Origin: Nitrobacter sp. 62-23
Lineage (GTDB): Bacteria; Pseudomonadota; Alphaproteobacteria; Rhizobiales; Xanthobacteraceae
Direction of reading: 5' to 3'
Length of the DNA: 44,773 nucleotides
NCBI RefSeq assembly: GCF_001897285.1
Contig: NZ_MKSM01000114.1
Span: 1-44,773 of the forward strand
Positions 2,726-40,867 of the stretch are shown here, one piece after another; the stretch's first letter is position 1; each line of letters begins with the position of its first letter. Below the pieces are notes generated by a model, which was given only the letters and a program-made list of their open reading frames with translations, made no database searches and was not told where the DNA came from. The position numbers and the translations under genes are program-made.

Positions 2726-3682
2726 TCAGCACTTCACCCGCTTCTGCTCGCGGTCCACCGCCTGCTTCACGCCCGCCGAGGAGCGGGGATATTTGCGCGT
2801 GACCTCGCCGAGCGCGGCGCAGGCGGCCTCCTTCTCCTTCAGCGCAGCCAAGGACTGTCCGAGCCGCAGCAAGGCGTCGGCCGCTTTCGCCGAGGTGTCG
2901 TATTTCGTGGTGACGCCGAGGAAAGCCTCGGCCGCCTCGCGATATTTCTGGCGCTGAAACAGACTTTCGCCCAACCAGTACTGCGCATCGCCCGTCAGCG
3001 TATCGGACGGGTATTTCTGGGTGAAATTGCGCATGGTTTCCTCGGCCAGCGCATAATCCTTGCGCTGCATGTAGCCGATGCCGAGATCGAATTCGTCGCG
3101 CGGCGTCGCCGACGGCGGCAGCGTGGTCAGGCCGCCGGTATGGGGCGGCGTTGCGTCGGGCGCCGGGTAGCCTCCCGGACGGCGCGGACTGGTGTTGGCG
3201 AGGTCGAGCGGCGCGCCGGCTTCCCGGCTGCCGGGCGACCCCACGGCTTGTTCCGGCATCGGCATGCGCCCGCCACCGAGCGCGCGCGGCGCACCCGGCG
3301 CGTTGGGATTTCGGCTGGGATCGAAAGCATCACCGCGACGGCCTTGCGCCGGCACGCTGACCGGTTGCTCCTGGACGACGGGCGCCTGCCCTCCCCCCGG
3401 ATCATAGGCCGGCTGACGGTAGGTCGGGGCCGATTGCGCCGGCGGAGCGGCGGCAACGGCGGGCGGCGCGCCTGCCGGCTGCAGCTGCTGCAACTGTTGC
3501 TCGAGCATCCGATTCCGATGTTGCAGTTCCTCGTTCTGCCCGGTCAGCGTCCTCAACTGGTCTTCCAGTTGCTGAATGCGGATTTCAGGATCGACGTCGT
3601 ATTGCGCGAACGCGGGTGACGAAAGCGCAAGCACCGCGGCAACGGCCGCTGCGCGCACAAGCCTCGGGGCTATGGATGACAT
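2726..3682 (-). CDS. cpoB: Tol-Pal system protein CpoB (YbgF)
   Basis: Periplasmic partner of the Tol-Pal complex; in Escherichia coli CpoB links outer-membrane constriction to peptidoglycan synthesis. The 318-residue protein has a signal peptide (1-27, ending SPAFAQ), a Gln-rich coiled coil (about 30-70, heptad-like QQLEDQL), a Pro/Ala/Gly-rich linker (about 70-195) and a C-terminal TPR domain (about 200-318; motifs GIGYMQRKDYALAEE, YWLGESLFQRQKYREAAEAF, ALLRLGQSLAALKE). The reading frame stays open to 3775, but the ATG at 3682 directly starts a signal peptide and is preferred. Its usual upstream neighbour pal is not adjacent here: it lies at 40370-40867, on the same strand. Confidence 0.93.
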   Translation of the reverse strand: MSSIAPRLVRAAAVAAVLALSSPAFAQYDVDPEIRIQQLEDQLRTLTGQNEELQHRNRMLEQQLQQLQPAGAPPAVAAAPPAQSAPTYRQPAYDPGGGQAPVVQEQPVSVPAQGRRGDAFDPSRNPNAPGAPRALGGGRMPMPEQAVGSPGSREAGAPLDLANTSPRRPGGYPAPDATPPHTGGLTTLPPSATPRDEFDLGIGYMQRKDYALAEETMRNFTQKYPSDTLTGDAQYWLGESLFQRQKYREAAEAFLGVTTKYDTSAKAADALLRLGQSLAALKEKEAACAALGEVTRKYPRSSAGVKQAVDREQKRVKC

Positions 3683-3850
3683 TTTGGCCTGACGATTGAA
3701 ATGAACGTCGCATCGAAAGCGCACCCATTGAAAACCCGACTGCGCCGAAAATGTGACTTGGTCCAACACCGGCAATCACTTTACAACGATCTTCTCCGCC
3801 CGTCTCCTGTCTATATTTTGTCTTGGTCGGCGCTCACTGCCCTGCGCCTG

Positions 3851-3930
3851 GAGCATTTTCGCTTCTGATTATTGTTTCGATGCGTTTTCTTCACGCGAAC
3901 CGGTATCCATCCTCGGGTCAAGCCCGAGAC
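3851..3930. repeat. Dispersed intergenic repeat (copy 1; related copy at 20303-20410)
   Basis: It shares the pattern TTCTGA... TGCGTTTTCTTCA-GCGAACC... ATCCATCCTCGGG-CAAGCCCGAG with 20303-20410. The 3' part forms a small hairpin CTCGGG / CCCGAG. Such elements are common between genes in Bradyrhizobium-like genomes (family statement from general knowledge). Confidence 0.6.
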
Positions 3931-4213
3931 TATGCTTCGCTCGAAACGCTGTGGCGTTTACCGCTCGAACCATCACGGCGGATGACGAGCGCCGCATTGA
4001 CCGGAGCAGGAAGGTGGCGCAGCGAAGCGCGCACGCTCGACGAAAACCAGCGGTCCGCCCCTATTCTCCCGGCGCCGCGGGTGACTGCCTCGCATCGAGG
4101 TATCCATGGTGTGCGGCCCGAGTTGCACAATAAGCGGCGACACTCTGTGACGCAGTAAGATCTGTGACGCAGTCAGAAAAGGGGCAGGTCGATGGGCGAA
4201 TGAATGCCGGCCG

Positions 4214-4261
4214 GAGCAATTCCGGACGCAAAATCGCTGCGCATTCTTGCTGGAAATGCTC
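4214..4261. repeat. GAGCA-type imperfect palindrome
   Basis: A 48-bp imperfect palindrome that begins GAGCAATTCCGG and ends GGAAATGCTC. The core TCCGGACGCAAAATCGCTGCGCA is shared in part with the longer repeats at 6981-7109, 24689-24790 and 31256-31352. It ends 34 nt before the nickel permease start. Confidence 0.6.
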
Positions 4262-4295
4262 TAGTGTCGTCCCATTCAATTGGAGCCATTTTGAG

Positions 4296-4997
4296 ATGCT
4301 GGCATTTCTGGGTTTTGGCTTCGTGCTGGGGATGCAACACGCACTGGAAGCCGATCACATCGCCGCGGTGTCGAGCATTGCTGCGCGGCGAAGCCAGATC
4401 GGCGATATCGTCAAGCACGGGCTGACCTGGGGAATGGGGCACACCATCACGCTATTCCTGTTCGCCGGCGTGGCGCTGGTGCTCGGCCAGGCGATCCCCG
4501 CACATTTCGAGCAACGGCTGGAGACGGCGGTGGGCATCATGCTGGTCGGGCTCGGCGTTCACGTATTGTGGCGGCTGTGGCGCGATCGCGTTCACTTCCA
4601 TCAGCATACCCATGGTGACGGCAGGCGGCACATTCATGTCCACGGTCACGCCGGCGAGGAAGTGCCGCATGCCTTGAGTGCGCACGAGCACAGCCATGGC
4701 TTTCGCTGGCGCTCGCTATTGGTCGGGCTGATGCATGGCATGGCCGGATCGGCCGCGCTGCTCGTGCTAACCGTATCGCAGACCAAGGATCCCATGCAGG
4801 GATTGTTTTACGTGCTGCTTTTCGGCGTCGGCTCGATGATTGGAATGGGCGCCTTATCCACGGTGATCGCCTTGCCGATCGCGGCATCGGCGAAATTCCT
4901 GACCTGGGTCAATCGGGGCCTGCAGGTCGTGGTCGGTGTTGTCACCATATCGATCGGGTTGAATACGATCGTCCAGACGGTACTGATAACGCTATAG
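4296..4997 (+). CDS. UreH/NiCoT-like nickel permease
   Basis: Inner-membrane protein of the UreH / nickel-cobalt transporter superfamily, expected to import Ni2+ for urease. The 233-residue protein shows the NiCoT-like first signature GMQHALEADHIAAV (about 10-23), then GMGHTITLF, a His-rich loop (HFHQHTHGDGRRHIHVHGH, about 107-125) and a third motif region GLMHGMAGSAALLV, with about six membrane segments. The frame is open from 4164, but the extra residues are translated from a palindromic repeat, so the ATG at 4296 is preferred; GGAG lies about 10 nt before it. It converges on the next gene with a 21-nt gap. The urease cluster about 4 kb away supports nickel rather than cobalt as cargo; that is inference. 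Confidence 0.85.
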   Translation: MLAFLGFGFVLGMQHALEADHIAAVSSIAARRSQIGDIVKHGLTWGMGHTITLFLFAGVALVLGQAIPAHFEQRLETAVGIMLVGLGVHVLWRLWRDRVHFHQHTHGDGRRHIHVHGHAGEEVPHALSAHEHSHGFRWRSLLVGLMHGMAGSAALLVLTVSQTKDPMQGLFYVLLFGVGSMIGMGALSTVIALPIAASAKFLTWVNRGLQVVVGVVTISIGLNTIVQTVLITL

Positions 4998-5018
4998 CCG
5001 CCATCGCAGGCTGGATGC

Positions 5019-6713
5019 TCATCCGCCACGGTCCGAGTAGGGATTGTCGGCCGCTGTGTCGACTTCGCGCCTTGCCCTGTTCGCGAGATACGTCTTGAGC
5101 TTTGCGATCGCTTCGGGAGACCAGTTGCGCACGTCCGTTACGGCGATCCATGCATCCACGTAATGTTCCGGCGCATAGACATGGCCATACCCCATGGGCG
5201 TGCTGTTCGCGGCGGGCATGTCGACGGCGAGCTGAAGCATGGTGACGATCGGATACCACCGCAATTCCGGAGAAACGTCCGGGCCGCGGGGCTCCTGCAT
5301 CCAGGCCGGGCGTTGATACGCATATCGATATGCGAACAGCACGATCGCATCGCTTGCATATTGCAGATAGACGACGCGCATCGGACCCCAGGGCGCGTCG
5401 GCGGGGACCGTCGATCCGTCCTGGTTCATGAATCGCACAAAGCGGCCATCGCGGAATTGCGGCAGCCAGGCAGGAGACCCCTCGTTGCGATTTGCCGTGA
5501 TCGAGCGCCAGATTCGGCTCTCGAAGGGAGGCCCGCTCCAAAGGGCGCCAGCGATGGGATCGCCGATCGTCTCGAACAACTCCGACGATCTCTCCGAGTT
5601 CAAGGCACCGAGGCTGAGGCCGTGCAGATACAGTTTAGGACGCGCATTTCTCGGCAGCGTGGTCCAATATCCGTAGATTTCGGCGAACAGTGCGCGCGCC
5701 GCCTCCTTGCCATATTCGGGTTGAAACATCAGCGAAAGCGGGCTGTTCAGATAAGAGTATTGCATCGCGACGCTGGCGATGTCGCCGTCGTGAAGATATT
5801 CGACCGAATCCATCGCCGACGGATCGATCCAGCCTGTACCGGTCGGCGTAACGATGATGAGGGTGGAACGCTGAAAGCCGCCCTGGCGCTTCAACTCGGC
5901 CAGCGCGAGTCTGGCGCGCTCGCGCGCTGTAGCGGCATTGCGCAGGCCGACATAAACGCGGATGGGCTCCAGGGCAGGCCGTCCCGTCAATGCGCGGATC
6001 TGGTCAGCGCTGGGCCCCGACGCCACGAACCGGCGGCCGGTTCGACCGAGTTCATTCCATGTCAGCAGGGACGCCGCGCTTCCCGTTTTTCCAGGAGAAG
6101 TCGGCTGCTGCCGTTCGGGTTCGAACAGGGCGTCGAGTTCGCGAAACGACGTATCAACCGCTCGAAACGCGGTACGAATAAGGAAGTTCGTGGTAATCGA
6201 CCAGAACAATAGCGCCGCCAGAAGCAGGCCGATAGCATTGGCTATTTTTCTTGGAATGAAACGGCGAATCTGGGTGGAGAGAAAGCCGGTCACGGTCTTG
6301 AAAAGCCGTGCCACCACCAGGATCGCCAGGAACGTGATCGCTGCGATTGCGCATACCTTGAAAGGACGGGAGCTTTCGACCGCTTCCATGCCCATGACGG
6401 CGCGAATCGAGTTCTGCCAGCCTGTTGCCTTCCAGAGAAAGGTGACCATGACTGCAAGACACAGAACCGAGACACCAACGTTGGTGACGGAGCGAATTCG
6501 GTCGGAAGGTTGGGGAAGTTCGAGATAGCGCCACAACCAGCGCCACAACACGCCGGCGCCGTAACCGATCGCAAAACAACCTCCCGCAAGGGCGCCCTGT
6601 GTCAGATAGTGCCGCGGAATCAGCGACGGCGTGAGCGCAGCCGCAAAGAACACGGCCCCCAGCAGAAGCCCGACACCGGACAACGATTGTATCTGCCGCC
6701 GGACGATCTCCAT
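5019..6713 (-). CDS. Membrane alpha/beta-hydrolase of the COG4425 family
   Basis: Family of predicted membrane hydrolases with an N-terminal multi-helix domain (Abhydrolase_9_N type) and a C-terminal alpha/beta-hydrolase domain (Abhydrolase_9 type). The 564-residue protein has four to five membrane helices in its first 180 residues and a nucleophile elbow GLSLG (Ser about 367) in the sequence YLHGLSLGALNSE. Substrate and role are unknown. The reading frame continues upstream to a TTG at 6788, but the ATG at 6713 begins a typical cytoplasmic N-terminus (MEIVRRQ) and is preferred. It lies between nickel and urease genes but has no known link to them. Confidence 0.85.
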   Translation of the reverse strand: MEIVRRQIQSLSGVGLLLGAVFFAAALTPSLIPRHYLTQGALAGGCFAIGYGAGVLWRWLWRYLELPQPSDRIRSVTNVGVSVLCLAVMVTFLWKATGWQNSIRAVMGMEAVESSRPFKVCAIAAITFLAILVVARLFKTVTGFLSTQIRRFIPRKIANAIGLLLAALLFWSITTNFLIRTAFRAVDTSFRELDALFEPERQQPTSPGKTGSAASLLTWNELGRTGRRFVASGPSADQIRALTGRPALEPIRVYVGLRNAATARERARLALAELKRQGGFQRSTLIIVTPTGTGWIDPSAMDSVEYLHDGDIASVAMQYSYLNSPLSLMFQPEYGKEAARALFAEIYGYWTTLPRNARPKLYLHGLSLGALNSERSSELFETIGDPIAGALWSGPPFESRIWRSITANRNEGSPAWLPQFRDGRFVRFMNQDGSTVPADAPWGPMRVVYLQYASDAIVLFAYRYAYQRPAWMQEPRGPDVSPELRWYPIVTMLQLAVDMPAANSTPMGYGHVYAPEHYVDAWIAVTDVRNWSPEAIAKLKTYLANRARREVDTAADNPYSDRGG

Positions 6714-7508
6714 GGAATATCTCAAAATGGCCAATGGACGATTTTCCTCAACAACGTAACCTGATTGAAACGGAGAATCGTACCACAATGTGGTGCGATA
6801 AATCTGGGGCGTTTTTGATTGTTGCGAAGGAGCACGTTACCGGCAACCGGATTCATCAGGCCCTAAGATGCTGACGTTTAACGTTCGTAACGATGATATT
6901 GTCTTGATCTATCGTTTTTTCTCTGCTGTGATGTCTGACCGAAGGTTGTTGTCAATCAAGGACATTCGGCAATGTATTTGAGCCGGCGCCATTCCAGCAA
7001 ACGTGCGTAGCGGCTTCGGAAATTGCGTAAAACTCGTTAGAGAAAAGGGACGGACAATTTAAAGATATGGAGTATCGGGGCGATTCTATAGTTTCGCCGG
7101 AAGTGCTCCAACTCAGGCGCAAGCAAGCTCAATAATTAAGGACGGTGCCTGTGCGTCGACTTCTGCATTCGTGTTTTTGCATTCTTGTTTTGTCATGGGT
7201 GCTTCCGTTTGTCCTGTCGGCTTCATGACATCATCATCGCTCGGGCAGAGATATCTGTAGTGATTTCGGACTTCAATGCGCAACGCGCGCAAGGACAAAA
7301 GTCGTCCCCGCCCGCCGGATCCGCAGCGGTCGTCGCGGCGACCAGCCAGTGCGGCGCAGGATTTATGACTGCCGCGGCCGTCCTTCCGGACAGAACCGCC
7401 CGCACGGCACCTCTGCCCGTACTATACCAACCGGGTCCGGGCTTTCCGGGATTTCTGCCCCTGAGGGCGTGAAACGAGCGCAATGGCAGGAATTGAAAGG
7501 ATCCCGGC
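6714..7508. other. Intergenic region between divergent genes
   Basis: This stretch of about 795 bp has no gene I can support. It should hold the promoters of both flanking genes and contains one dispersed repeat (6981-7109). Several short frames here code for nothing recognisable. Confidence 0.5.
6981..7109. repeat. Dispersed GAGC...GCTC repeat (long form, degenerate)
   Basis: It shares the order of blocks with 24689-24790 and 31256-31352: TTCC-GCAAA-GTGCG-AGCGG, then CGGAATT-CGTAAAACT, GAGATAGAG-like spacing, GGCGATTCT and TTTCGCCG-AA-TGCTC. This copy is longer and more diverged, with an inserted stretch around 7045-7065. No coding content. Confidence 0.55.
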
Positions 7509-7994
7509 ATGTTGAGAACAAGTCTGATCGGTGTCGTGGGCGCCATCACATGGATGTGCATTGTCACATCGCCCGCGCGCGCCGATCTCCTTCGCGTCGG
7601 CAGATTGATATGTTCGGCAGACGTACGGGTTGGATTGGTGCTGGGATCCACGCAGTCGCTTCGTTGCGTGTTCCACAAGGTTCGTCCGGCGCGCCGCTAT
7701 ATCTATGAAGGGCGCATCAACCGGGTGGGTCTCGATCTGGGCATTACTCAGGGTGGCATCTTGTCCTGGGCAGTTCTCGCTAAAAATTCCCGCATCGGTC
7801 CCGGCACCATGAGGGGCACCTATGTCGGCGCCAGCGGCAATGTTGCCTTCGGACCTGGTCTGGGCGCGAACGTTCTGATCGGCGGGTCGCGGAGATCGGT
7901 CGTGTTGCAGCCGCTGTCCGTCGAACTGAATGTCGGCATCAATCTCGCGGTGGGAGTAACGCGTCTTACGTTGGGACCGAGGGGGCCGCGCTAA
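7509..7994 (+). CDS. DUF992 family exported protein (paralogue 1)
   Basis: Small exported protein of unknown function, from a family I know mainly in Hyphomicrobiales. The 161-residue product has a signal peptide (1-25, ending SPARA), the DUF992 core with VGRLICSADVRVGLVLGST, a cysteine pair expected to form a disulfide, and glycine-rich C-terminal motifs (GLGANVLIGGSRRSVVLQPLSVE). The ATG at 7509 has AGGA about 8 nt upstream. A second copy lies at 31513-31983; the two share CVF, RVGLD-GIT-GG, GLGAN and LQPLSVE. It is probably co-transcribed with the DUF1269 gene 45 nt downstream. Function is not known. Confidence 0.85.
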   Translation: MLRTSLIGVVGAITWMCIVTSPARADLLRVGRLICSADVRVGLVLGSTQSLRCVFHKVRPARRYIYEGRINRVGLDLGITQGGILSWAVLAKNSRIGPGTMRGTYVGASGNVAFGPGLGANVLIGGSRRSVVLQPLSVELNVGINLAVGVTRLTLGPRGPR

Positions 7995-8039
7995 AGCATA
8001 ACACCATCGAGACCAACTCTTGCTCTGGAGAATTTCAGA

Positions 8040-8597
8040 ATGTCTGATCTGGTAATTGTAGGCTTTGAAAATCAGAATGATGCAGATCGGGTTCTAACTG
8101 ACCTCACCCGATTGCAGAAGGAATATCTCATAGACCTTGAAGATGCCGTTGTTGCCATCCGCGATAGTGACGGCAGCGTTCGCATTAAGCAGTCCGTCAA
8201 TCTCGTTCGCATCGGGGCAACCACCGGCGGATTGAATGGGGCGATCCTGGGAAGCTTGGTGGGCCTGCTGTTTCTCAATCCACTTGCTGGTTTCGCGGTA
8301 GGCGGATTGGTTGGAGCCGGCTCAGGGGCTCTGTCCGGCAGCTTGATGGATTTCGGAATCAACGATGACTTCATCAAGTCGATCGGCGAAACGCTCAAGC
8401 CGGATACATCCGCCCTGTTTCTTTTGATTCGGAAGGCACAGCCGGAAAAGGTTCTCAAGGAGCTTGCCGGATACAAAGGGCATCTCATTCGCTCGTCTCT
8501 GTCCTCCGAACAGGAGGCCAAGCTCACGGCAGCGCTCGCGCAGGCGCACGCACCGAGCCCGAGTGACGGCGTGGAGGGGGCCAAGGCCGCACGTTAG
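8040..8597 (+). CDS. DUF1269 family membrane-associated protein
   Basis: The 185-residue protein begins MSDLVIVGFENQNDAD and has a central hydrophobic, glycine-rich segment (about 57-102; GGLNGAILGSLVGLLF, GGLVGAGSGALSGSL) that looks like a glycine-zipper membrane hairpin. The C-terminal part contains KPDTSALFLLIR, typical of DUF1269 proteins. The molecular function is unknown; members are often linked with stress. GGAG lies about 12 nt before the start. It follows the DUF992 gene by 45 nt on the same strand, so the two probably form one transcript. Confidence 0.85.
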   Translation: MSDLVIVGFENQNDADRVLTDLTRLQKEYLIDLEDAVVAIRDSDGSVRIKQSVNLVRIGATTGGLNGAILGSLVGLLFLNPLAGFAVGGLVGAGSGALSGSLMDFGINDDFIKSIGETLKPDTSALFLLIRKAQPEKVLKELAGYKGHLIRSSLSSEQEAKLTAALAQAHAPSPSDGVEGAKAAR

Positions 8598-8895
8598 GGT
8601 GATTGAGGCGGGCAGCGGAGAACAGGCTCGATGCTCGCTTAAGGGCCTGTTCGGAAAGTCACCGGGCATCTGCCGGCTATTCCCCGGACGCAGCGCAGCG
8701 TGAAACGGTGCGCTGCTGAGCCGGGGTCTTTGCGAGGCTTTCTGCAACGATCCCGGGTCTGCAACGATTCCGGGTCTGCGCGGCGTCACTTCGTGCCGCA
8801 GCGCACCCGGGACACCCGGACAGCAAACGTTTCAAACAGGCTCTTGACCACCGGATCGCGCGACAGCTTCTGTCGCGCGCATCGAGTCGTATGCA
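8598..8895. repeat. Repeat-rich gap between DUF1269 gene and ureG
   Basis: No gene here. It contains a GC-rich palindrome (8682-8726, CCCCGG... GCAGCG / CGCTGC ...CCGGGG), a perfect-length tandem duplication of 17 bp (8744-8760 and 8761-8777, GCAACGATCCCGGGTCT with one change), and a further hairpin between CCCGGGTCTGC-like and GCGCACCCGGG sequences ending near 8812. Such CCCGG-rich palindromes are frequent between genes in Bradyrhizobium-type genomes. Confidence 0.6.
8857..8879 (-). terminator. Hairpin downstream of ureG
   Basis: A perfect 10-bp stem CGCGCGACAG / CTGTCGCGCG with a 3-nt loop lies 17 nt past the ureG stop. No T-run follows on the minus strand, so it may be a 3'-end stabiliser or a weak terminator rather than a full intrinsic terminator. 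Confidence 0.45.
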
Positions 8896-9528
8896 TCAGG
8901 CTGTCCGATCAGCCATATCCAATCCGCCGCTCTCCATGAGAAAATCGATAACGATCTGAACGCCGTCGCCGCGCATGAGATCGGTAAAACCGAACGGACG
9001 GTCGCCGCGCATTCGCTTGGCGTCCGCGCGCATGACATCGAGGTCGACCTTCACGTAAGGCGCAAGATCGCTTTTGTTGATCACAAGGAAATCCGAGCGC
9101 GTGATGCCGGGACCGCCCTTGCGCGGAATATCCTCGCCCTGACAAACGGAAATTACATAGAGCGTGAGATCGGCCAGGTCAGGAGAGAACGTTGCGGCAA
9201 GATTGTCGCCTCCCGACTCGATAAAGATCACGTCGAGATCCGGAAACTTGCGGTTCATCTCGGCGATCGCCTGGAGATTGATGGATGCATCTTCCCGAAT
9301 GGCGGTGTGCGGACAGCCCCCGGTCTCGACTCCCAATATCCGGTCCTCCGGAAGCGCCTGGTGCCGCGCAAGGATCAGCGCATCTTCCTTGGTGTAGATA
9401 TCATTCGTAATGACGGCGATCGAGAATTTCCGGCGCAGTGTCTGACACAGCTTCTCCGTCAACGTTGTTTTGCCCGAGCCGACAGGTCCGCCGATGCCCA
9501 CGCGGAGGGGACCGTTACGCGATGCCAT
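8896..9528 (-). CDS. ureG: Urease accessory GTPase UreG
   Basis: SIMIBI-class GTPase that, with UreD, UreF and UreE, delivers nickel to apo-urease in the cytosol. The 210-residue protein has the P-loop GPVGSGKT (14-21), the nickel-binding CPH motif (72-74) in [11 protein letters not shown], the motif [13 protein letters not shown], and the guanine-specificity motif NKSD. The frame is open to a TTG at 9543; the ATG at 9528 is preferred because GAGG stands about 10 nt upstream and the family begins this way. It follows ureE by 34 nt in a two-gene unit that diverges from ureD. Identification is secure. Confidence 0.96.
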
Positions 9529-9562
9529 GACCACCGTCCTCAATTCCGTTCAAGAGTTCGCT

Positions 9563-10114
9563 TCAATCATGATGATGGTGGTGATGGCCATGATCATGGT
9601 CATGTGAATGATCATGGTCATGGTCGTGCGCATGGTCGTGCTTATGATCGTGACCATGCTGATGTCCGTGCCCTGAATAGGCGCCGCGCAACGGGTTAAA
9701 GGGAGCCGTGATTTCACGCACTGTGGCGCCAAGTCCAATCAGCATCGCCTTGATGACATGATCGCGCAAAATCAGAATCCTGTCAGCCGCGATCGCAGCC
9801 GGCAGATGGCGGTTGCCAATGTGCCAGGCGAGTTGAGCGATATCGGCGCTATTACGCGCCGTGATTTCGTAGAGCGGTTCGTCGGCGGCGACGATGGCAA
9901 CGACAGCGCCATTGTCGAGAAGAAGCGCGTCCCCCGCGGCCAGGACAACAGGCTCGGGCAAATCGACCAGGACCTTGCTGCCATCCGTCAGCTTGATCGC
10001 CTTGCGGCGCAGATGACGTTCATCGTGCTGCAACACCGCCGTGCCAAAAGGGGACGGTGCATGTGTGTCAACACCCGCCTTCGAGGCGGCTTGAATAGCG
10101 ATCGCCCGCAACAT
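9563..10114 (-). CDS. ureE: Urease accessory nickel chaperone UreE with His-rich tail
   Basis: Nickel-binding chaperone that hands Ni2+ to UreG for insertion into urease. The 183-residue protein has the N-terminal peptide-binding-like domain (about 1-75, with [10 protein letters not shown] and [14 protein letters not shown]) and the ferredoxin-like metal-binding domain (about 76-145) with [11 protein letters not shown], whose HIGNRH corresponds to the conserved metal site. The last 36 residues contain 20 histidines alternating with Asp and Gly. Such tails occur in some UreE proteins, for example that of Klebsiella, and bind several extra nickel ions. It is the first gene of the ureE-ureG unit and starts 404 bp from divergent ureD. 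Confidence 0.95.
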
Positions 10115-11349: not shown

Positions 11350-11376
11350 GACGAAATGTAGGTGGGAGGTCAGGCA

Positions 11377-11679: not shown

Positions 11680-11689
11680 CGAGGCCACC

Positions 11690-32073: not shown

Positions 32074-32106
32074 GAAGCCCCGCTTCTCCATCAGAAGCGG
32101 GGCTTC
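32074..32106. terminator. Hairpin between convergent genes, probably bidirectional terminator
   Basis: A perfect 14-bp stem, GAAGCCCCGCTTCT / AGAAGCGGGGCTTC, with a 5-nt loop. It lies between the DUF992 stop (31983) and the convergent DUF900 stop (32188). On the plus strand it is followed by ATGCGTTTTAC, a short T-run; on the minus strand by TATGGTTTAGTTT. Confidence 0.75.
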
Positions 32107-32187
32107 ATGCGTTTTACAGCCTTTATAGAGAAGCATGTTTTCGGGCTTGACCCACGGCGGCTTGCCCGCCTTTGAAATTCCTGGAAT

Positions 32188-33811: not shown

Positions 33812-34522
33812 ATGCTGAATCGCCGTTTGTTCTGTGGGTGCGTTTCGTTTGCTCTGTTTGCAGGCGCTACCGCCGGGAGCGCGCGCGCCGAGCCTGCGGA
33901 ATGTGCGGTGTTCACGCCAGACCGGCAGAAGCACACCAGTCCCGACGAGGCGATCGCACGCCTCAAGGCCGGCAATGATCGTTTCGTCGCCGGCGCAACC
34001 GTCAATTGCGATCTGATGGCGCAAGTTCGCGAGACCGCGAAGGCGCAGGCACCGTTCGCGGCCATCGTCGGCTGCATCGATTCGCGGGTCCCGCCTGAAC
34101 TGGTGTTCGACCAGCGCATCGGCGACGTATTCTGCGCCCGTATTGCCGGCAACTTCGTCAACGACGACATCATCGGCAGTCTGGAGTTCGCTACCCAGGT
34201 CGCCGGCGCGCGCGCCATCGTGGTGCTCGGACATTCCAGTTGCGGCGCGGTCATGGGCGCAATCGATGGCGTCAAGCTCGGCCATCTGACCGGAGCGCTC
34301 GCCCACATTCAGCCGGCGGTTTCGGCCACCAAGGCCGAGGGCAAGCCTTCATCGAAAAACGACGCCTTCGTCCAGGCGGTGGCCGAGACCAACGCCCGCA
34401 TGGCCGCGGCGGATTTGACAAAGCGGAGCACGATCCTGAAGGCGCTGGCAGAGAAAGGTGAACTGCGCACCGTTGCCGCCATGCACGATCTCGCCACCGG
34501 ACGGGTGAAGTGGTTGAGTTAA
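33812..34522 (+). CDS. Periplasmic beta-carbonic anhydrase
   Basis: Zinc enzyme that interconverts CO2 and bicarbonate. The 236-residue protein has a signal peptide (1-26, ending GSARA), so it should act in the periplasm. Zinc ligands and the Asp-Arg dyad of the beta class are present: Cys88-Ile-Asp90-Ser-Arg92, then His141 and Cys144 in GHSSCGAV. Other family sequences are EAIARLKAGNDRFVAG and RIAGNFVNDDIIGSLEFA. The frame is open from 33650; the ATG at 33812 has GGAAGGAGC upstream and starts the signal peptide. It converges with the Mrp-like operon, whose last gene ends 59 nt away. Confidence 0.93.
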   Translation: MLNRRLFCGCVSFALFAGATAGSARAEPAECAVFTPDRQKHTSPDEAIARLKAGNDRFVAGATVNCDLMAQVRETAKAQAPFAAIVGCIDSRVPPELVFDQRIGDVFCARIAGNFVNDDIIGSLEFATQVAGARAIVVLGHSSCGAVMGAIDGVKLGHLTGALAHIQPAVSATKAEGKPSSKNDAFVQAVAETNARMAAADLTKRSTILKALAEKGELRTVAAMHDLATGRVKWLS

Positions 34523-34581
34523 GGAAAGCGAAGCGACGACAGCCGACGGCTTCGATCGTTTACAACGCTCTCGAAAACGTC

Positions 34582-36192
34582 CTAAAGACTCGCCGCCAGC
34601 AGAGCGAGAGTGATCAGAAGCAATGAGACGCACGCCGCCGACCATTGGCAGAGACGGGCGTCAAGCGCTTTGAAGGATGAGCCGATACCCAGAAGGCGGC
34701 CGAACGCGGCCTCCTCAAGGACAATGCTGTCGCCGACCGGAACGCGGGGCAAGAACCGGTCGATCCGCCGCAGTATCAGAGCAAGGCCAACACCGAGCGC
34801 CACCGGCCAGAGCCCATCGACAAGGGTGCCCCATTCAAACGCATATGAGATATCGCCGACTGCCGGATAAAAGGCCCACGGCAGCAGGATCGCGCCAAGC
34901 GCAATGCCGGGCCAGAGAGGGACGAAGCCGGCCGGGCATTCCTGTGCGGCGCCGGACGGCGAGGTTGCAAGACAGATCAGGAAATGTGTCATCAACATCG
35001 CGGTGCCGATTGAAGACAGGGTGGCGAGAACCGCCTCCGCGCCGCCGGCGAATTGCGCCTTCGTTGCAATCTTGGCCAGGGCGCCGCCTGTCAACGGCAA
35101 GCCGGCAAGGCTCAGGGCAAGCAGGGCAGCAAGAATATACGTCGCGCGGGAAAGCCTTCCGCCTCGTATCGCCAGCACGCCGATAGTCAGAAACAAGGCA
35201 GCTTTGACCAGCAGGTGGTTTGCGGCATAAAAGCCGACCTCCAGAGCAGCGCCGGCTTGTCCTTTCACGAGCGCCACGCCAAAGGCAGCCATAATGACGC
35301 CCATCTGGCTGATGCTGGAATATGCCAGCACGACCTTGGTGTTTTGCTGGACCAGGCCAAAAGCGACACCGTAAAAGGCGCAAAGAAAGCCCATGACCAC
35401 CAGGGCATCGCCCCACCCTTCCAGCGGAAGACCAAGCGGCAGGAAGCGCAGCAACCCGATCACGCCGGCCTTGACGCCCGCGCCGCTCAGCACCGCGGCG
35501 GCAGGAATAGGCGCCGCGCTATAGGTCAGCGGCATCCAGCCATTGAAAGGGATCATGCCCATCTTCATTCCGAAGCCGGCAATGATCAGCCCCAGAATGG
35601 CATCTCGCCAGGGTGAGGTCGGCAAGGCGGCCATGACATCGGCGATGTTCGCGCTGCCGTGCGGCTCGCCTGCGATGAGCATTGCGAAGGCAAGCAGCAG
35701 AAGCGCCTCACCGAGAATGGTGAAAGCCATATAGATCGCGCCGGCACGTTTGCGCTCGCCGTCGTCGGAAAACGCGAACAGGCCGTAGGCAGGAATGCTG
35801 GCGAGCGCATACAAAAGATAGAATGAGACAAGGTCGCCCGCGATAAAGACCCCCAGATTGCCTGTCATGGTGAGAAGCCAGGAAAGGCCCCAGCGGTTAT
35901 CCGGCTGGCGGTCGCGCCAAATCGCGGCGCTGATGATGATCCAAAGCAGCGCCGCGCCGGCGAGAAGCAGCGCGCTTGGCGGATCGAGGCGCAGGGTGAA
36001 GCCCGAGACAGGCAGGTCGTAGGTGAGCGGCGCACGGGTCAGGCCGGCCAGACCGGTCGCGAGAGCGGGCGTTGGGGCGAGCCATTGCAGGGCAAGGACC
36101 TGACGCCGCCAGCCTTTGACAAAGCAGGCGGCAAGGAAGGCCAGGGGCGTGCCCAGGCTCGCAACCAGCAAGATGGGGAAAAGATCAGTCAT
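34582..36192 (-). CDS. Mrp-like antiporter subunit, second ND2/ND4/ND5-type protein
   Basis: Proton-conducting membrane protein of the complex-I antiporter-like superfamily. The 536-residue protein has about 14 helices, with the helix-7 lysine region GFGMKMGMIPFNGWMPLTY and the helix-8 region VLSGAGVKAGVIGLLR. In helix 5, where these proteins usually carry a Glu needed for ion transport (pattern WEL or FEL), it reads FYLLYALASIPAY with Ala129; the codon is GCG. It lacks the C-terminal DUF4040/MnhB extension of a classical MrpA; that domain is encoded separately at 38023-38976. Its start overlaps the stop of the preceding gene by 4 nt. Last gene of the operon. Confidence 0.87.
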   Translation of the reverse strand: MTDLFPILLVASLGTPLAFLAACFVKGWRRQVLALQWLAPTPALATGLAGLTRAPLTYDLPVSGFTLRLDPPSALLLAGAALLWIIISAAIWRDRQPDNRWGLSWLLTMTGNLGVFIAGDLVSFYLLYALASIPAYGLFAFSDDGERKRAGAIYMAFTILGEALLLLAFAMLIAGEPHGSANIADVMAALPTSPWRDAILGLIIAGFGMKMGMIPFNGWMPLTYSAAPIPAAAVLSGAGVKAGVIGLLRFLPLGLPLEGWGDALVVMGFLCAFYGVAFGLVQQNTKVVLAYSSISQMGVIMAAFGVALVKGQAGAALEVGFYAANHLLVKAALFLTIGVLAIRGGRLSRATYILAALLALSLAGLPLTGGALAKIATKAQFAGGAEAVLATLSSIGTAMLMTHFLICLATSPSGAAQECPAGFVPLWPGIALGAILLPWAFYPAVGDISYAFEWGTLVDGLWPVALGVGLALILRRIDRFLPRVPVGDSIVLEEAAFGRLLGIGSSFKALDARLCQWSAACVSLLLITLALLAASL

Positions 36193-37691
36193 GGCAGCGC
36201 CGCCGCTATTGGACGGCCTATTTCAAGAATGTCAGAGAAAGTCTGCGGCATGAAGCCGAGTGCGATGGCGATCATCGCAAGACCAAGCGCAAGAACCTCC
36301 TGGCTGCGCTTCGGCGACGATTTCAACGAGATCCGGTCATCGGACAATGCGGGCGCGAGAATGCGGTAGACATAGCCGGCGGCAAGCAGCCCGCCGGCTA
36401 GAATGGGAAGCGTCCAGAACCACTGGCCTGATATGATGGAAGCTTGCAGCATCAGCCATTTGGCGCTGAAGCCGCCGCTCGGCGGCAATCCCATCAGGGA
36501 CAATCCGCTGAGAGCGATGGTCAGGAAGGTCAAAGGCAGCACGCGCGCCGCGCCGCCAAGCCTTGCGATCTGGTCATGGCCAAGCGCTTCGGCGAGCAGG
36601 CCAGCGGAGAAAAACATCGCGGCTTTCGCGAATGCATGGGCGAGAATCTGCATGAAGCAGGCACTCCAGCTCATCGCGCTCCAGCTCTGCGCGCCTGTAG
36701 CGAGCGGAAACACCAGAAAGAGGTAACCGATCTGGGCCACCGTCGAATAGGCGATCAACAATTTCAGCCGCGCTTGACGCAATGCCATGACGCTGCCCGC
36801 GATAATCGCCGCCGAACCGAGACAGCCGATAACCATCGCTGCCTGATCCGCGGAAAGGCCGGGAAGGACATAGAACCACAGCCGCAGCGTGAGAAAGAAC
36901 GAGCCTTTGACAACCAGGCTGGACAGCACCGCGCTTGCCGCCGCCGGCGCGTTGGCGTGAGCGGGCGGCAGCCAGAGATGCAAAGGGAAAAGAGCCGTCT
37001 TGGCGAGCAGACCGCCGGTCATAAGAGCGGCTGCCGTCCAAACAACGGGCGTGGACTGAACCCTTTGGGCGAGAAGCGGAATGTCCAGCGTTCCGTGCGC
37101 CCCGTAGAGCAGGGCGACGCCAAGCAGATAGCAAATCGATCCGAACAGGGCGAAGAGGAGATAGCGCAATGCGGCGACGAGCGTCTCCGGGCGGCCATCG
37201 ATACAAACGAGAGGCACCGCAGCGAAGGTAAGCAGTTCCAGCGCGACGTAAAGGTTGAAGAGGTCGCCGCTGACGAAAATGATGATCAGCGCGGCCCAGA
37301 TCGACTGAAGCATGATCCAGAAAATCAGGGAGCTTCGGCTTTCCCGGATGCCGTCAGGCGTGGCGAATTTCGCGCGGGCGTATAATGCGGCGGCCGTTAC
37401 AATAACCGCGGTGGTGATCAGCATGATCGCCGATATGCCGTCGGCGCGCAAAGCGATACCGAGCGGCGGCTCCAGCGCGCCGATCACGTAGACGATGGGC
37501 TTGCCCGCTCGACCGACATGGAGCGCGATCGCACAGGCCAGCGCCAGTCCGAATGGCGTCGAGCCGAGAGCGACGCGCTCGGCGCTGCGGCCCCCAAGCG
37601 TGAAGGACAGAATGATTCCTGCAAGCGGCAGCAGAATCGCAAGAACGATGAGGTAGCCGCCAGGCGTGGTCGTCCACAGCTCGGTCATCAC
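36189..37691 (-). CDS. mrpD: Mrp-like antiporter subunit D (MnhD/MrpD type)
   Basis: Proton-pumping antiporter-like subunit of an Mrp complex. About 500 residues and 14 helices, with the helix-5 glutamate present (LYVALELLTFAAVPLV, Glu152), the helix-7 lysine region LLAKTALFPLHLWLPPAHANAPAAASAVLS and the next lysine VVKGSFFLTLR. The start is either the GTG at 37691 (GTGA overlap with the stop before it) or the ATG at 37688 (TGATG overlap). Its stop overlaps the next start by 4 nt. With its neighbours it should form a Na+(or K+)/H+ antiporter. Confidence 0.9.
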   Translation of the reverse strand: MMTELWTTTPGGYLIVLAILLPLAGIILSFTLGGRSAERVALGSTPFGLALACAIALHVGRAGKPIVYVIGALEPPLGIALRADGISAIMLITTAVIVTAAALYARAKFATPDGIRESRSSLIFWIMLQSIWAALIIIFVSGDLFNLYVALELLTFAAVPLVCIDGRPETLVAALRYLLFALFGSICYLLGVALLYGAHGTLDIPLLAQRVQSTPVVWTAAALMTGGLLAKTALFPLHLWLPPAHANAPAAASAVLSSLVVKGSFFLTLRLWFYVLPGLSADQAAMVIGCLGSAAIIAGSVMALRQARLKLLIAYSTVAQIGYLFLVFPLATGAQSWSAMSWSACFMQILAHAFAKAAMFFSAGLLAEALGHDQIARLGGAARVLPLTFLTIALSGLSLMGLPPSGGFSAKWLMLQASIISGQWFWTLPILAGGLLAAGYVYRILAPALSDDRISLKSSPKRSQEVLALGLAMIAIALGFMPQTFSDILEIGRPIAAALP

Positions 37692-38026
37692 TTCGCGTCC
37701 CCGCCGTCCGGCCGGGTCGGGACCTCGGGGTCCAACGTGACGCGCCTGCCCACCGCGGACAGGCGCAGGATGAGCGCCACCGCAACCGCGCTGGCGGCGA
37801 AGGCGACGACGATTCCGGTGATGATCATGGCTTGCGGGACCGGGTCGAAGCGCAAGCCGGCAGCCGCGCCGCGCCGCGCCACGATGCCGAAAACGAGGAA
37901 AACACCGCTGCCGATCAGATTGAAGGCGAGTAATTTGCGCAACGGATGTGGATGGAGAATGAGACCATAGAGTCCGAGACCAACCAGAGCCGCGCCGAGC
38001 AATCCTGCTATAACCGATGGCGTCAT
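37688..38026 (-). CDS. mrpC: Mrp-like antiporter subunit C (MnhC/NuoK-like)
   Basis: Small three-helix subunit homologous to NuoK. The 112-residue protein has GLLGAALVGLGLYGLILHPHPLRKLLAFNLIGSGVFLVFG and a second half with DPVPQAMIITGIVVAFAASAVAVALILRL, the conserved MnhC pattern (DP-PQALVLTAIVI). It overlaps its upstream neighbour by 4 nt (ATGA) and its downstream neighbour too. Confidence 0.92.
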   Translation of the reverse strand: MTPSVIAGLLGAALVGLGLYGLILHPHPLRKLLAFNLIGSGVFLVFGIVARRGAAAGLRFDPVPQAMIITGIVVAFAASAVAVALILRLSAVGRRVTLDPEVPTRPDGGDAK

Positions 38027-38976
38027 CGATCAGGTCTCTCGCCCGGTGAACCGGCGACGAGCATCGGCAACGCCGCCGCTATGGACAACACCATGAACGC
38101 TTCGATGAACAGAATGATCGGCTTGGCGAGGGCGGGCGGATAAGCAAAGAAGCTTCCTGCCACAACACCGCCCGCGAGGCCGATGACGAGGAATACCGCA
38201 GGTCCGGCGACCAGCGCCACGCGGAGCCACCTTGCGTCGACGCGGGGCGGCTGCGCCACTCCCGCCATCATCGTCACCATCCACATGGCCGCAAGCAGGG
38301 CGCCGCCCTGAAAGGCGCCGCCGGGCTCGTCGGCGCCGACCCAAAATATATGAATGCCAATGAGCACGCCGACTGGCGCCAGCATCTGGGCGAGGAAAAC
38401 CATGGGAGCGTCGGGTTTGGATACGCGAAACGGCGCCGGCGCTCCGCCCCAGGCGTTGTCGGCGCCCACCGACCAGACCCCGACTACAGCCAGGATCAGA
38501 ACCATCTTCTCAAGCATGGTGTCGAAGGAGCGATAGGACATCAACACCGCCGTGATGGGGTTGCCAAGGCCGGCGCCGGCGCCGTGGATGGCGGCAACGG
38601 CTTCCGGTGCGAGCGACGGCGGCGGATCAGGCAGCATCAGGATGACAGCGCACAAGGCGCCGGCGACAGCCGCGGCGAGCACGCCGGCGACGAGGCTGAG
38701 GCCGAATCCCGGTCGCTCGCCCTGCCCGACATTCCTGAGCCCTCCGAGTCTTTTGCCGGCGGTAATAAGCAGGACGCCGGTGACCCCTCCGCCAACGGCC
38801 GCCTCGGTCAAGGCAACATCCGGCGCATAGAGGCGGATCCAGACGAAAGCGAGCAACAACCCGTAGGCGACATAGCCGACCACCGAAGCGAACAGGTCTC
38901 GCGCCGCGATGGTCCAGAAGGCGACGGCGACGACTAAAAGGGCGAGACAGATGTCGAGATAGGGGAGAAGACTCAT
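38023..38976 (-). CDS. mrpB: Mrp-like antiporter subunit: DUF4040 (MbhD-like) region fused to MnhB domain
   Basis: The 317-residue protein starts with a DUF4040/MbhD-like part (about 1-80; ARDLFASVVGYVAYGLLLAFVWIRLYAPDVALTEAAVGGGV), continues with a middle segment, and ends with an MnhB domain (about 165-310; IGIHIFWVGADEPGGAFQGGALLAAM, a form of the conserved G-PGGGFQGG sequence). In classical Mrp operons the DUF4040 and first MnhB-like regions are the C-terminus of MrpA; here they are a separate chain without the ND5-like N-terminus. Overlaps by 4 nt on both sides show tight coupling. About nine to ten membrane helices. Confidence 0.88.
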   Translation of the reverse strand: MSLLPYLDICLALLVVAVAFWTIAARDLFASVVGYVAYGLLLAFVWIRLYAPDVALTEAAVGGGVTGVLLITAGKRLGGLRNVGQGERPGFGLSLVAGVLAAAVAGALCAVILMLPDPPPSLAPEAVAAIHGAGAGLGNPITAVLMSYRSFDTMLEKMVLILAVVGVWSVGADNAWGGAPAPFRVSKPDAPMVFLAQMLAPVGVLIGIHIFWVGADEPGGAFQGGALLAAMWMVTMMAGVAQPPRVDARWLRVALVAGPAVFLVIGLAGGVVAGSFFAYPPALAKPIILFIEAFMVLSIAAALPMLVAGSPGERPDR

Positions 38977-39260
38977 TTGCGGCCTCGCCTCAGCGCGCGA
39001 CCAATCAATTGCGCAGTCGAGGCGCCGGAGAGCAGAACCAAGGCCCAGATGACAACCAGCTTAAGCGCTGAAAGCGCGCTTTCGGCACGCGGGAGCAGGC
39101 CAAGCACGATCAGGCCAAGGCCGAGATTGTCGACCTTGGTCAGAGCATGCAGACGGCTGAGCGAATCCGGAAAACGCAGAAGGCCAACTGTTCCGGCGAA
39201 AAAGAAAAACGTGCCGGCAGCGATGGCGGCGATACTCAAGAGGTCGAGAAACGCGATCAC
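38973..39260 (-). CDS. mrpG: Mrp-like antiporter subunit G (MnhG/PhaG)
   Basis: Small three-helix subunit of the Mrp complex. The 95-residue protein has the MnhG signature FFFFAGTVGLLRFPDSLSRLHALTKVDNLGLGLIVLG. The start is a GTG at 39260 overlapping the stop of mrpF (GTGA). Its own stop overlaps the next start by 4 nt. Confidence 0.92.
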   Translation of the reverse strand: MIAFLDLLSIAAIAAGTFFFFAGTVGLLRFPDSLSRLHALTKVDNLGLGLIVLGLLPRAESALSALKLVVIWALVLLSGASTAQLIGRALRRGRK

Positions 39261-39526
39261 GCTTCCCCGTCTCCTTGTTCAGCATCGAGCAGATTGACCA
39301 GAGCAATGGTGGCAAACGCGGCGAGCAAGGCAAGACCCAGCGCAACATCCTCCACGCCGGGAACGCTCGTCGCATACGCAATCAGTAATAATGCTGCGAT
39401 GCCGCCGGTACCGAGCAGTTGGACCGCCATCAATCCTTCCACGTCCGAGCCGCGCGAAATGCGCGCAAGTCCAACCGCAACCATGAGTATGATCAGGCCC
39501 GCCGCGGCGAGAAGCAGTTCATTCAT
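39257..39526 (-). CDS. mrpF: Mrp-like antiporter subunit F (MnhF/PhaF)
   Basis: Small three-helix subunit; 89 residues beginning MNELLLAAAGLIILMVAVGLARISRG and containing GSDVEGLMAVQLLGTGGIAALLL, close to the MnhF pattern (GP-DRV-ALD-LG). The frame is open to 39628 inside mrpE; the ATG at 39526 gives an 8-nt overlap with mrpE and a normal length, so it is preferred. Confidence 0.88.
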   Translation of the reverse strand: MNELLLAAAGLIILMVAVGLARISRGSDVEGLMAVQLLGTGGIAALLLIAYATSVPGVEDVALGLALLAAFATIALVNLLDAEQGDGEA

Positions 39527-40007
39527 GACAGATCGCCGCTTTGAACAGGGTCTCGTCCGCCTTGATGGCTTCCGCTGTCGGCTGCGAAATGTCGAGGCAA
39601 TGCACCTGAAGCATGTCGCCTTCCACACCTATCGGCGAGGTACCCGGCTGAAGGCTCTGATAGACGAGAAAGACATTGCGAGCTCCGCCGGGCGGCAGGG
39701 TAACGGGAACGTCGGCAAATCCAGGACGTAGATCAACGCGCGGCAGAAGCGCGCGGCGGGCGACATCCACGCCAGCGATGATCGAGCAACTCAGAAAACG
39801 AAAGCTAAGTCTGGCAAGCTGGACAAGACGCAGGCGGACCGCGCTGGGCGGCAAGAGCGACAGACTGATCCACAGAGCAAGCGCGGACGCCACCAAACCG
39901 ACGGCAAGATTCTCTTCGCTCCAACCCGCAATCACAAGCCATATGCCAAGAAAGAAGACGAGACGAGCAACGGCAGCCCTCATCATCAAAGGCGTATGAC
40001 CGGACAT
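39519..40007 (-). CDS. mrpE: Mrp-like antiporter subunit E (MnhE/PhaE)
   Basis: First gene of the Mrp-like operon. The 162-residue protein has an N-terminal pair of helices (LVFFLGIWLVIAGWSEENLAVGLVASALALWISL) and the C-terminal MnhE region with VEGDMLQVHCLD, corresponding to the conserved V-GD-LLVHVLD pattern. AGAGGTGAG lies upstream of the ATG at 40007. The operon order is E-F-G-(DUF4040+B)-C-D-D2, with no MrpA-type fusion. Confidence 0.88.
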   Translation of the reverse strand: MSGHTPLMMRAAVARLVFFLGIWLVIAGWSEENLAVGLVASALALWISLSLLPPSAVRLRLVQLARLSFRFLSCSIIAGVDVARRALLPRVDLRPGFADVPVTLPPGGARNVFLVYQSLQPGTSPIGVEGDMLQVHCLDISQPTAEAIKADETLFKAAICHE

Positions 40008-40311
40008 CGAAATAGCTCACCTCTTCGATTTGAGCATTCAGGCTAACATCCTCGCGCATGGTCAGCAACGTTTTCATGGCTGTCCTGCCGGACAGTGATC
40101 GCTCCCGAGACTCCGGCAGGCTGGTCCTTACCCGGATCGACACGCTGTCTCGCGTAGCTCGAGCCGCGATGCACGCGACCACCACGGCCTGCATTTCGCT
40201 CATCACCGTTTGCGCGTCCTCCCTAGCACTCAAACTGATTCCGGGCGTCGAGCCGGATCACAGCGGCGATCGCTAAAAAACGCGCCAGTTCGAAATTCTC
40301 GGACACCGCTT
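40008..40311. other. Gap between pal terminator and mrpE
   Basis: It should hold the promoter of the Mrp-like operon. Short frames exist on both strands (for example 40058-40276 plus) but show no family features or convincing ribosome sites. Nothing else recognised. Confidence 0.4.
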
Positions 40312-40345
40312 CAAAACAAAACCGGCGCCCGAAGGGACGCCGGTC
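40312..40345 (-). terminator. Intrinsic terminator of pal
   Basis: On the minus strand ACCGGCGTCCC-TTCG-GGCGCCGGT forms a stable hairpin (one bulge) followed directly by TTTTGTTTTG. It lies 25 nt past the pal stop, so pal transcription should end here and not continue toward the Mrp-like operon or cpoB. Confidence 0.85.
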
Positions 40346-40369
40346 GGAAACTAGAGATGCGCGACGTTT

Positions 40370-40867
40370 TCAGGAGCTGGCGTTCAACACCGTGACGGCA
40401 CGGCGATTCTGGGACCAGCAGGAGATGTCGTTGCAGACGGCGACCGGTCGCTCCTTGCCGTAGGAGATCGTACGCATCCGGCCCGCGTCGATGCCGCGCG
40501 ATGCGAGGAAGGCCCGAACCGTTTGCGCACGACGTGCGCCAAGCGCGATGTTGTACTCGCGGGTGCCGCGTTCGTCGGCATGGCCTTCGATCGTGAAAGA
40601 ATAGCGAGGATAGGTCTGCAGCCAGCGCGCCTGCTTCTCCAGCGTCGTAATTGCCTGCGGCGACAGGTTGGTCTGGTCGCTTTCGAAGAAGACGCGGTCG
40701 CCGACGTTGACCACGAAATCCTGCTGACTGCCCGGCGTAGCGGCGCCGGCCATGGCGCCATCCGCGCCGCCCATGCCGTTCTTGTTGGCGCAGGCCCCCA
40801 TCGACAGCGCCGCCGCGAGCACGGCGACCAGCTTCAATCCCCGGAGGATTCGCTTCTGATGTAACAT
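40370..40867 (-). CDS. pal: Peptidoglycan-associated lipoprotein Pal
   Basis: Outer-membrane lipoprotein that binds peptidoglycan and works with TolQRAB during division. The 165-residue protein has a lipobox LSMGAC (Cys26), a short Gly/Ala linker, and an OmpA-type peptidoglycan-binding domain (about 50-165): VGDRVFFESDQTNLS, the binding motif TIEGHADERGTREYN, LGARRAQTVRAFLASRGI, and ISYGKERPVAVCNDISCWSQNRRAVTVL, strongly typical of alphaproteobacterial Pal. The frame is open to 41020; the ATG at 40867 has GGAGG 7 nt upstream and gives the usual length. The expected neighbours tolB and cpoB are not adjacent: cpoB is at 2726-3682 and no tolB is seen. It could be a second Pal copy. Confidence 0.9.
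   Translation of the reverse strand: MLHQKRILRGLKLVAVLAAALSMGACANKNGMGGADGAMAGAATPGSQQDFVVNVGDRVFFESDQTNLSPQAITTLEKQARWLQTYPRYSFTIEGHADERGTREYNIALGARRAQTVRAFLASRGIDAGRMRTISYGKERPVAVCNDISCWSQNRRAVTVLNASS

Follow-up and report, generated by a model that had tools for sequence, protein, structure and literature searches.

In the window analysed here, a 44,773-nt stretch of Nitrobacter sp. 62-23 DNA taken as a whole, the cell-envelope genes pal and cpoB lie on the same strand 36.7 kb apart, and our analysis supported the insertion of a 36-kb block between them, inside the tol-pal locus. Decayed and permuted pieces of the repABC-plasmid replication gene repC occupied both borders of this block, and no recognisable repA or repB was present in the window. 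These borders suggested that the block was probably once a circular plasmid of the repABC type, complete or reduced, which opened within repC and was sealed into the pal-cpoB spacer.

The separated genes and the rest of the tol-pal system

The earlier note had placed pal and cpoB in their expected order on one strand with 36.7 kb between them, and this reading was borne out when the coordinates were rechecked (Table 1). The pal protein matched the TIGR02802 equivalog at 137.1 bits (cut-off 125.35), the cpoB protein matched TIGR02795 at 127.1 bits (cut-off 90.1), and tilS came after cpoB. The distance between pal and cpoB was 187-425 bp in all eight other Nitrobacter genomes compared. The family sample comprised 119 genomes, and 109 with both genes on the same contig entered the gap count; in the other ten, pal was missed (6), cpoB was missed with pal present (1) or the two were on separate contigs (3). 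Gaps were at most 502 bp in 93 genomes and 1.3-8.1 kb in 15, and the only one above 10 kb was that of Nitrobacter sp. 62-23, the single genome in which the 36-kb block was found. Sturgis reportedly studied tol-pal gene order in 2001. The literature that we searched, mostly without subscription papers, held no account of pal and cpoB split by an island, nor of repABC capture in Nitrobacter.

All of tolQ, tolR, tolA, tolB, pal and cpoB were found in the genome, with tolA scoring slightly below its cut-off (54.8 against 59.45 bits). The lack of a tolB upstream of pal, on which the earlier note had remarked, turned out to be an effect of the contig end: tolB sits on contig C50, which rules out its loss, and the genome-wide search proposed in that note recovered the complete tolQRAB set intact on that contig, which synteny with the near relative Nitrobacter sp. 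62-13 (L060) places just beyond the right end of the window. The usual order in the clade is tolB-EAL-FeeM-pal. A second pal copy, the main alternative raised at that time, was ruled out as well; among seven Pal-family matches in the genome only the window copy passed the cut-off, and the next-best match to its protein was 32% identical.

The empty site and the borders of the block

Comparison of the locus across close relatives, as the earlier note had advised, upheld its proposal of an insertion within the tol-pal locus. Besides the adjacency of pal and cpoB in the eight other Nitrobacter genomes, an empty site was identified in the closest relative, L060, where window positions 3950 and 40302 correspond to L060:10566 and L060:10562 and are thus 3 bases apart. 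The flanks were approximately 7-14% diverged from this relative without the insert. The left border abuts a dispersed REP-like repeat, a copy of which occupies the same place in the L060 empty site, and the sequence at the right junction occurs once in the genome, so REP-to-REP recombination at both borders was ruled out for the right one. The landing place is the sole unconserved part of the pal-cpoB spacer.

Table 1. Features of the Nitrobacter sp. 62-23 window, with the supporting match or observation.
Feature	Position	Strand	Evidence or remark
tilS, flank at cpoB side	1542..2576	-	TIGR02432, 166.3 bits (cut-off 93.6)
cpoB (ybgF)	2726..3682	-	TIGR02795; best segment 95% identical in L060
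Conserved cpoB leader, ~120 nt before start codon	3683..3800	-	majority 0.81-0.97
Dispersed REP-like repeat, left insert border	3867..3950		~40 other genome matches, most ending at 3946-3950
Inserted block	~3951..40301		36,351 bp (36.35 kb); pairing with L060
repC relic, left border, codons ~99-124	3952..4023	-	protein profile, DNA profile, tblastn
NicO/DsbD-like membrane protein, divergent from cpoB	4164..4997	+	PF03824, 28.8 bits (cut-off 27.7)
Alpha/beta-hydrolase family protein	5019..6788	-	PF10081, PF15420
DUF1269 protein	8040..8597	+	PF06897
ureG	8896..9543	-	TIGR00101, 315 bits (cut-off 204.2)
ureE	9563..10114	-	PF05194, PF02814
ureD	10519..11349	+	PF01774
ureA, ureB, ureC	11362..13708	+	PF00547, PF00699, PF00449
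Urea transporter	13765..14808	+	PF03253
ureF	14815..15585	-	PF01730, 124 bits (cut-off 23.3)
Amplified bipartite palindromic element of the genome, one copy	15657..15830		at least 41 copies at 94-100%, including this one
TonB-dependent receptor	17868..20201	+	PF00593, PF07715
RND efflux permease and membrane-fusion protein	20496..24673	-	PF00873, PF16576
P-type cation ATPase, split by a frame change	24937..27665	-	PF00122, PF00689; compared with homologue in genome G019
Na/Pi symporter	27707..29509	-	PF02690; NF037997 over cut-off
Polyphosphate kinase 2	29374..30291	-	PF03976
Mrp/Mnh-type antiporter cluster (D, D, C, B, G, F, E)	34582..40007	-	PF00361, PF00420, PF04039, PF03334, PF04066, PF01899
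repC relic, right border, codons ~320-366	40159..40298	-	DNA profile, E 4.6e-15
pal terminator-like hairpin	40320..40345	-	hairpin and T-run after pal
pal	40370..40867	-	TIGR02802 over cut-off
FeeM-like N-acyl amino acid synthase, pal neighbour clade-wide	41185..41928	-	PF21926
PAS-GGDEF-EAL protein, clade-wide neighbour	42124..44451	-	PF12860, PF00990, PF00563

repC relics at both borders

The two repC pieces lie on the same strand and are permuted, with the C-terminal part at the pal side and the more N-terminal part at the cpoB side, as a circular molecule cut within repC would leave them. Their matches stop 1-3 bp inside the empty-site borders, and both are decayed and contain stop codons. 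When the window and 320 kb of the same genome were scanned in six frames with a protein profile, the border fragments ranked first and second of 10,111 fragments, with E values of 0.0009 (left) and 0.0013 and a next fragment at 6.2. The right relic was also the only DNA-profile match in the window and the 320 kb of host DNA, and its DNA was 72-74% identical to repC of five Nitrobacter repABC regions. The left relic is short (~25 codons): a tblastn search of the full window with RepC gave E 0.003, the DNA profile picked it up only when aimed at a 501-bp stretch (19.4 bits), and the default DNA-profile search of window and host (E<=10) missed it. As controls, neither the tol-pal loci of the eight other Nitrobacter genomes nor the 15 expanded spacers of other genera gave a DNA-profile match to repC at E<=1. 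Set against known repC, the right relic has diverged by 26-28%, compared with about 7-14% for the flanks against the relative without the insert, so its source must have been an unsampled repC type, a fast-decaying copy, or both.

The best tblastn matches to repA and repB in the window had E values of 4.5 and 4.6, and the ORFs that were scanned showed no transfer genes; with no recognisable repA or repB, the block was classed as a relic and not as a replicon. The repABC replicons of Nitrobacter and Bradyrhizobium, the apparent source family of the border pieces, carry intact repA, repB and repC, unlike the block. In all seven repC genes examined (11 retrieved), the 90-bp segment richest in A+T (codon 241) fell within the missing codons ~125-319. 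According to the accessible part of one study, the Rhizobium etli p42d origin lies in an A+T-rich stretch at repC nt 450-850, while the position of the A+T-rich region within repC is not conserved among plasmids (PMC3155836).

Probable capture of a plasmid and competing readings

Because the ends of the island are repC relics, we argue that the 36 kb came as one captured plasmid and not gene by gene. On this probable account, a full or cut-down plasmid carrying a urease locus, a urea channel and ion transporters would have been cut open inside repC and its two ends sealed into the pal-cpoB spacer beside the REP-like repeat. Most of repC with the origin region, together with repA and repB, would have been lost, and the cargo would thereafter have been inherited along with the chromosome. 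We infer that joining took place without any site-specific recombinase and that the event became fixed through the loss or breakage of the origin. Points that speak against this account are the short left relic, the failure to find repA, repB, transfer genes among the ORFs scanned or a free plasmid with the block, the mostly host-like composition, the presence in a single genome with a draft assembly, the variable place of the A+T-rich region in repC, and the greater divergence of the right relic than of the flanks. A more specific version, in which the break fell at the plasmid's own origin, within repC, before the chromosome took up the broken circle, is possible but rather doubtful; a break there would remove the origin, leaving captured DNA that would not compete with replication of the chromosome. 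Were this route a general one, its signature in Alphaproteobacteria would be islands with permuted repC pieces at their ends.

The block might instead have grown stepwise, with modules added singly in a permissive, repeat-marked spacer and the repC pieces arriving as passengers of one step. This would suit the different nearest relatives of the modules, as the P-type ATPase and Na/Pi symporter were 92% and the RND pair 70% identical in G019, whereas urease was ~72% identical in G121 and 78% on a Shinella plasmid; repeats also lie between modules (15657-15830, 20200-20427). The earlier note had suggested such growth, and part of it stood: an older clade-wide insertion (EAL, FeeM) separates tolB from pal, and unrelated inserts of 1.3-8.1 kb occupy the same pal-cpoB spacer in other genera of the family, where foreign genes likewise intervene and an RND pair recurs in 11 of 15. 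Unlike the Nitrobacter block, those spacers hold no repC match, and their RND pair is only ~23% identical to that of the island. Moreover, plasmids too grow by modules, so mosaic content cannot tell the two readings apart, and no intermediate with a partial block was found between pal and cpoB in the eight other Nitrobacter genomes. Permuted repC pieces exactly at both outer borders are hard to obtain stepwise and favour a single capture, which makes accretion unlikely.

Erroneous joining of a plasmid or another contig into the locus is still less probable. The source assembly is a draft of 142 contigs with 3% estimated contamination, and the left border falls at the dispersed repeat; against this, two false joins would need to meet at most 3 bases apart, the right junction is single-copy, and the terminal repC pieces are too decayed to belong to a live plasmid contig. 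In addition, one copy of the 170-bp element that is amplified in this genome lies within the block and matches copies at other places in the genome at 99% identity, hence the block is not foreign contamination. Finally, a genomic island placed at an attachment site by a tyrosine recombinase that was later lost would fit the sporadic presence and island-typical cargo, but is very improbable, as the window has no tRNA, no recombinase was found among the ORFs scanned (part of those in the window), the longest direct repeat of the border regions is 9 bp, with no inverted repeat >=9 bp, so that attachment-site repeats were rejected, and the mostly host-like composition, with only the 5-kb window 35001-40000 outside all 64 host windows, led us to reject alien composition as an island marker.

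The captured-plasmid reading has a partial parallel in the 280-kb plasmid integrated in Sulfitobacter pontiacus CB2047, where, as far as the accessible text goes, plasmid cargo is likewise sealed into the chromosome of one strain (PMC13386836). That element keeps its partitioning system and sits at an rrn locus; in contrast, the Nitrobacter block has repC scraps at its borders only, lacks the origin stretch and lies in the pal-cpoB spacer. Other tol-pal loci in which distance breaks the order are described in the available portion of PMC12204202, where the splits separate tolQRAB from pal-cpoB or tolQRA from tolB-pal-cpoB, while here pal is separated from cpoB. The block provides sequence evidence of how an accessory block could enter a conserved cell-envelope locus, namely by a plasmid opened in repC, and its permuted repC ends form a signature by which other such cases could be sought.

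Expression signals of pal and cpoB

The insertion site has the clade-wide terminator of pal on one side and the conserved cpoB leader of ~120 nt on the other, which probably leaves both genes with their expression signals. The earlier note had credited pal with its own terminator. A hairpin with a T-run is indeed present, and a terminator-like hairpin occurred within 150 nt of the pal stop in 88 of 89 entries against 11.6 expected from mononucleotide shuffles (87 of 88 distinct loci, as one Nitrobacter genome was entered twice), yet the scan of this downstream region alone was not above chance (one found, 1.6 expected). The per-20-column majority of the cpoB leader was 0.81-0.97 over nine Nitrobacter genomes and fell to 0.33-0.56 farther upstream. 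The gene now upstream of cpoB is divergent, hence transcription of cpoB must start in the 480 bp that separate the two. In other Alphaproteobacteria, pal-cpoB is a single transcription unit, according to the part of PMC9275681 that is accessible. The terminator after pal and the divergent neighbour argue against co-transcription here, and the split locus may serve as a natural experiment on whether the two genes have to be transcribed together.

Cargo of the block

Relatives of single modules were observed on plasmids, including the Shinella plasmid with urease and urea channel (78%) and Methylocella plasmids with the RND pair (77%). The whole block was not found on a free plasmid, as no PLSDB record covered 80% of either half. 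Several modules have relatives on contig C88 of G019; over its whole length this contig gave no match to RepA, RepB or RepC and is therefore not shown to be a repABC plasmid. An ORF at 14848-15516 (+) was rejected as a gene, the urease accessory gene ureF being on the opposite strand there. The cargo supplies Nitrobacter sp. 62-23 with a full urease gene set, which six of nine Nitrobacter genomes seem to lack, judged by the apparent absence of ureG.

Insertion between pal and cpoB

The window is an entire contig of a 142-contig genome (3.79 Mb; completeness 99.75%, estimated contamination 3.02%), to which Nitrobacter sp. 62-13 is the nearest among named relatives. The identities of Pal, CpoB and TilS were backed by curated models. 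The arrangement described in the earlier note, with pal upstream of cpoB on the minus strand and 36.7 kb between them, was borne out. In all of 80 named loci retrieved by their similarity to Pal, cpoB lay at most 1.33 kb from pal. Among 119 genomes of the family, pal was detected in 113 and cpoB in 114; both were on one contig in 109, on the same strand in all 109, and the gap was at most 502 bp in 93, 1.3-8.1 kb in 15 and 36.7 kb in the window alone. Spacers measured 187-425 bp in the eight other Nitrobacter genomes compared. Of the 15 expanded spacers, from other genera, 11 (L183-L191, L193, L194) contained genes for an RND permease and its adaptor, which share about 23% identity with the RND of the island.

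Positions 1537-3950 aligned with the tol-pal locus of Nitrobacter sp. 62-13 (L060) up to L060:10566, and 40302-41053 resumed from L060:10562; since the flanks meet there, the insert spans about 3951-40301. The left border falls at the end of a REP-like repeat that matches about 40 further places in the genome and also has a copy in the L060 empty site; the right border region is single-copy. Two false assembly joins meeting within 3 bases are unlikely, and insertion of the block is very likely.

The alternative of a second pal found no support, as the genome has a single Pal above the family cut-off. The apparent lack of tolB upstream of pal reflects the contig end: tolB, tolA (slightly below its cut-off), tolR and tolQ stand in order on contig C50, with tolB at 302-1699, and judged by L060 about 135 bp separate the window's end from the beginning of C50. 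No overlap was found between these two contig ends. The window ends in a 170-bp element, and this repeat probably broke the assembly there.

repC relics at the borders

The right border region gave matches of 72-74% at five places in other Nitrobacter genomes. In both of two matching regions checked with Pfam, RepA/ParA, RepB and RepC were present, and the gene matching the border was repC. Comparison of RepC with the whole window revealed a second matching place, the left border. When 10,111 six-frame fragments (the window plus 320 kb of the same genome) were searched with a protein profile built from 11 RepC, the border fragments took the top two ranks (E 0.0009 and 0.0013; next 6.2). With a repC DNA profile the right relic was the sole match (E 4.6e-15); the left was missed at default settings and reached 19.4 bits in a targeted search alone. 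This profile gave no match in reversed sequence, in the tol-pal loci of the other Nitrobacter or in the 15 expanded spacers. The repC matches stop 1-3 bp inside the insert borders, and their codons are permuted, about 320-366 at the pal side and about 99-124 at the cpoB side.

Ordinary insertion into a resident repC predicts the reverse of this order. The best-supported mechanism, which we consider probable, is that a repABC plasmid was captured between pal and cpoB: a circle opened in repC between codons 124 and 320 would leave permuted relics at the borders, end joining and a role of the origin being presumed steps. Confidence is limited because the left relic is short, no recognisable repA or repB was found in the window, and one genome alone carries the block. 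The missing codons include an A+T-rich stretch, peaking at codon 241 in all of the seven repC genes listed, out of 11; according to excerpts of PMC3155836, the R. etli p42d origin is located in such a region, whose place in repC differs among plasmids. Plasmid integration as such is already known; repC ends in permuted order, spanning the origin and lying within tol-pal, were not met with in the literature searched.

Cargo and neighbouring genes

Features of the window
Feature	Position	Strand	Remark
cpoB	2726-3682	minus	
repC relic	3952-4023	minus	cpoB side
NicO/DsbD-like membrane protein	4164-4997		divergent from cpoB
ureG, ureE		minus	
ureD-A-B-C, urea transporter		plus	
ureF		minus	
TonB-dependent receptor; RND pair			in block
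P-type ATPase			in block; frame change at 25485-25497
Na/Pi symporter; PPK2			in block
Mrp/Mnh-type antiporter cluster			in block
DUF992, DUF1269, alpha/beta-hydrolase proteins			in block
170-bp element	15657-15830; 44580-44749		first copy in block
repC relic	40159-40298	minus	pal side
pal	40370-40867	minus	
PAS-GGDEF-EAL and FeeM-like genes	41185-44451		

Little of the block is closely matched within the genus, the ATPase and symporter being exceptions (92% in G019, another Nitrobacter), and ureG is present in three of nine Nitrobacter genomes. The ATPase frame change, relative to an uninterrupted 928-residue G019 homologue, may be due to either sequencing error or decay. Because relatives of the ATPase, symporter, RND pair and Mrp cluster are clustered in G019 (L198; C88:105-120 kb), this set may travel as a group.

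Of 88 distinct loci, 87 have a terminator-like hairpin behind pal (88 of 89 rows). A leader of about 120 nt upstream of cpoB shows conservation across nine Nitrobacter, the window included, and the insert sits within the unconserved stretch between hairpin and leader. The new upstream neighbour of cpoB is divergent, so there is no read-through from it into cpoB. Excerpts of PMC9275681 report that Rhodobacter sphaeroides, Caulobacter and other Alphaproteobacteria transcribe tolQRAB as one unit and pal-cpoB as another; in the window, by contrast, pal and cpoB are also parted.

Among the named loci (L060-L139), tolB was located in 77, and 76 of these had an EAL and a FeeM gene between it and pal. 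In the family sample, 101 genomes carry tolB and pal on a single contig in the same orientation; the gap was below 1 kb in 65 of them, while 25 had one of 3.7-4.1 kb and seven one of 5.1-7.8 kb. Together these patterns indicate that the tolB side opened earlier, in this clade. A functional link of the PAS-GGDEF-EAL and FeeM-like genes to envelope control is possible.

The 170-bp element, with two palindromes and CTAGTGG-type ends, is represented in this genome by at least 41 copies that are 94-100% identical, the query among them, and by 121 matches in total, versus 10-53 in each of eight other Nitrobacter, where full-length matches reach at most 94%; its amplification looks recent.
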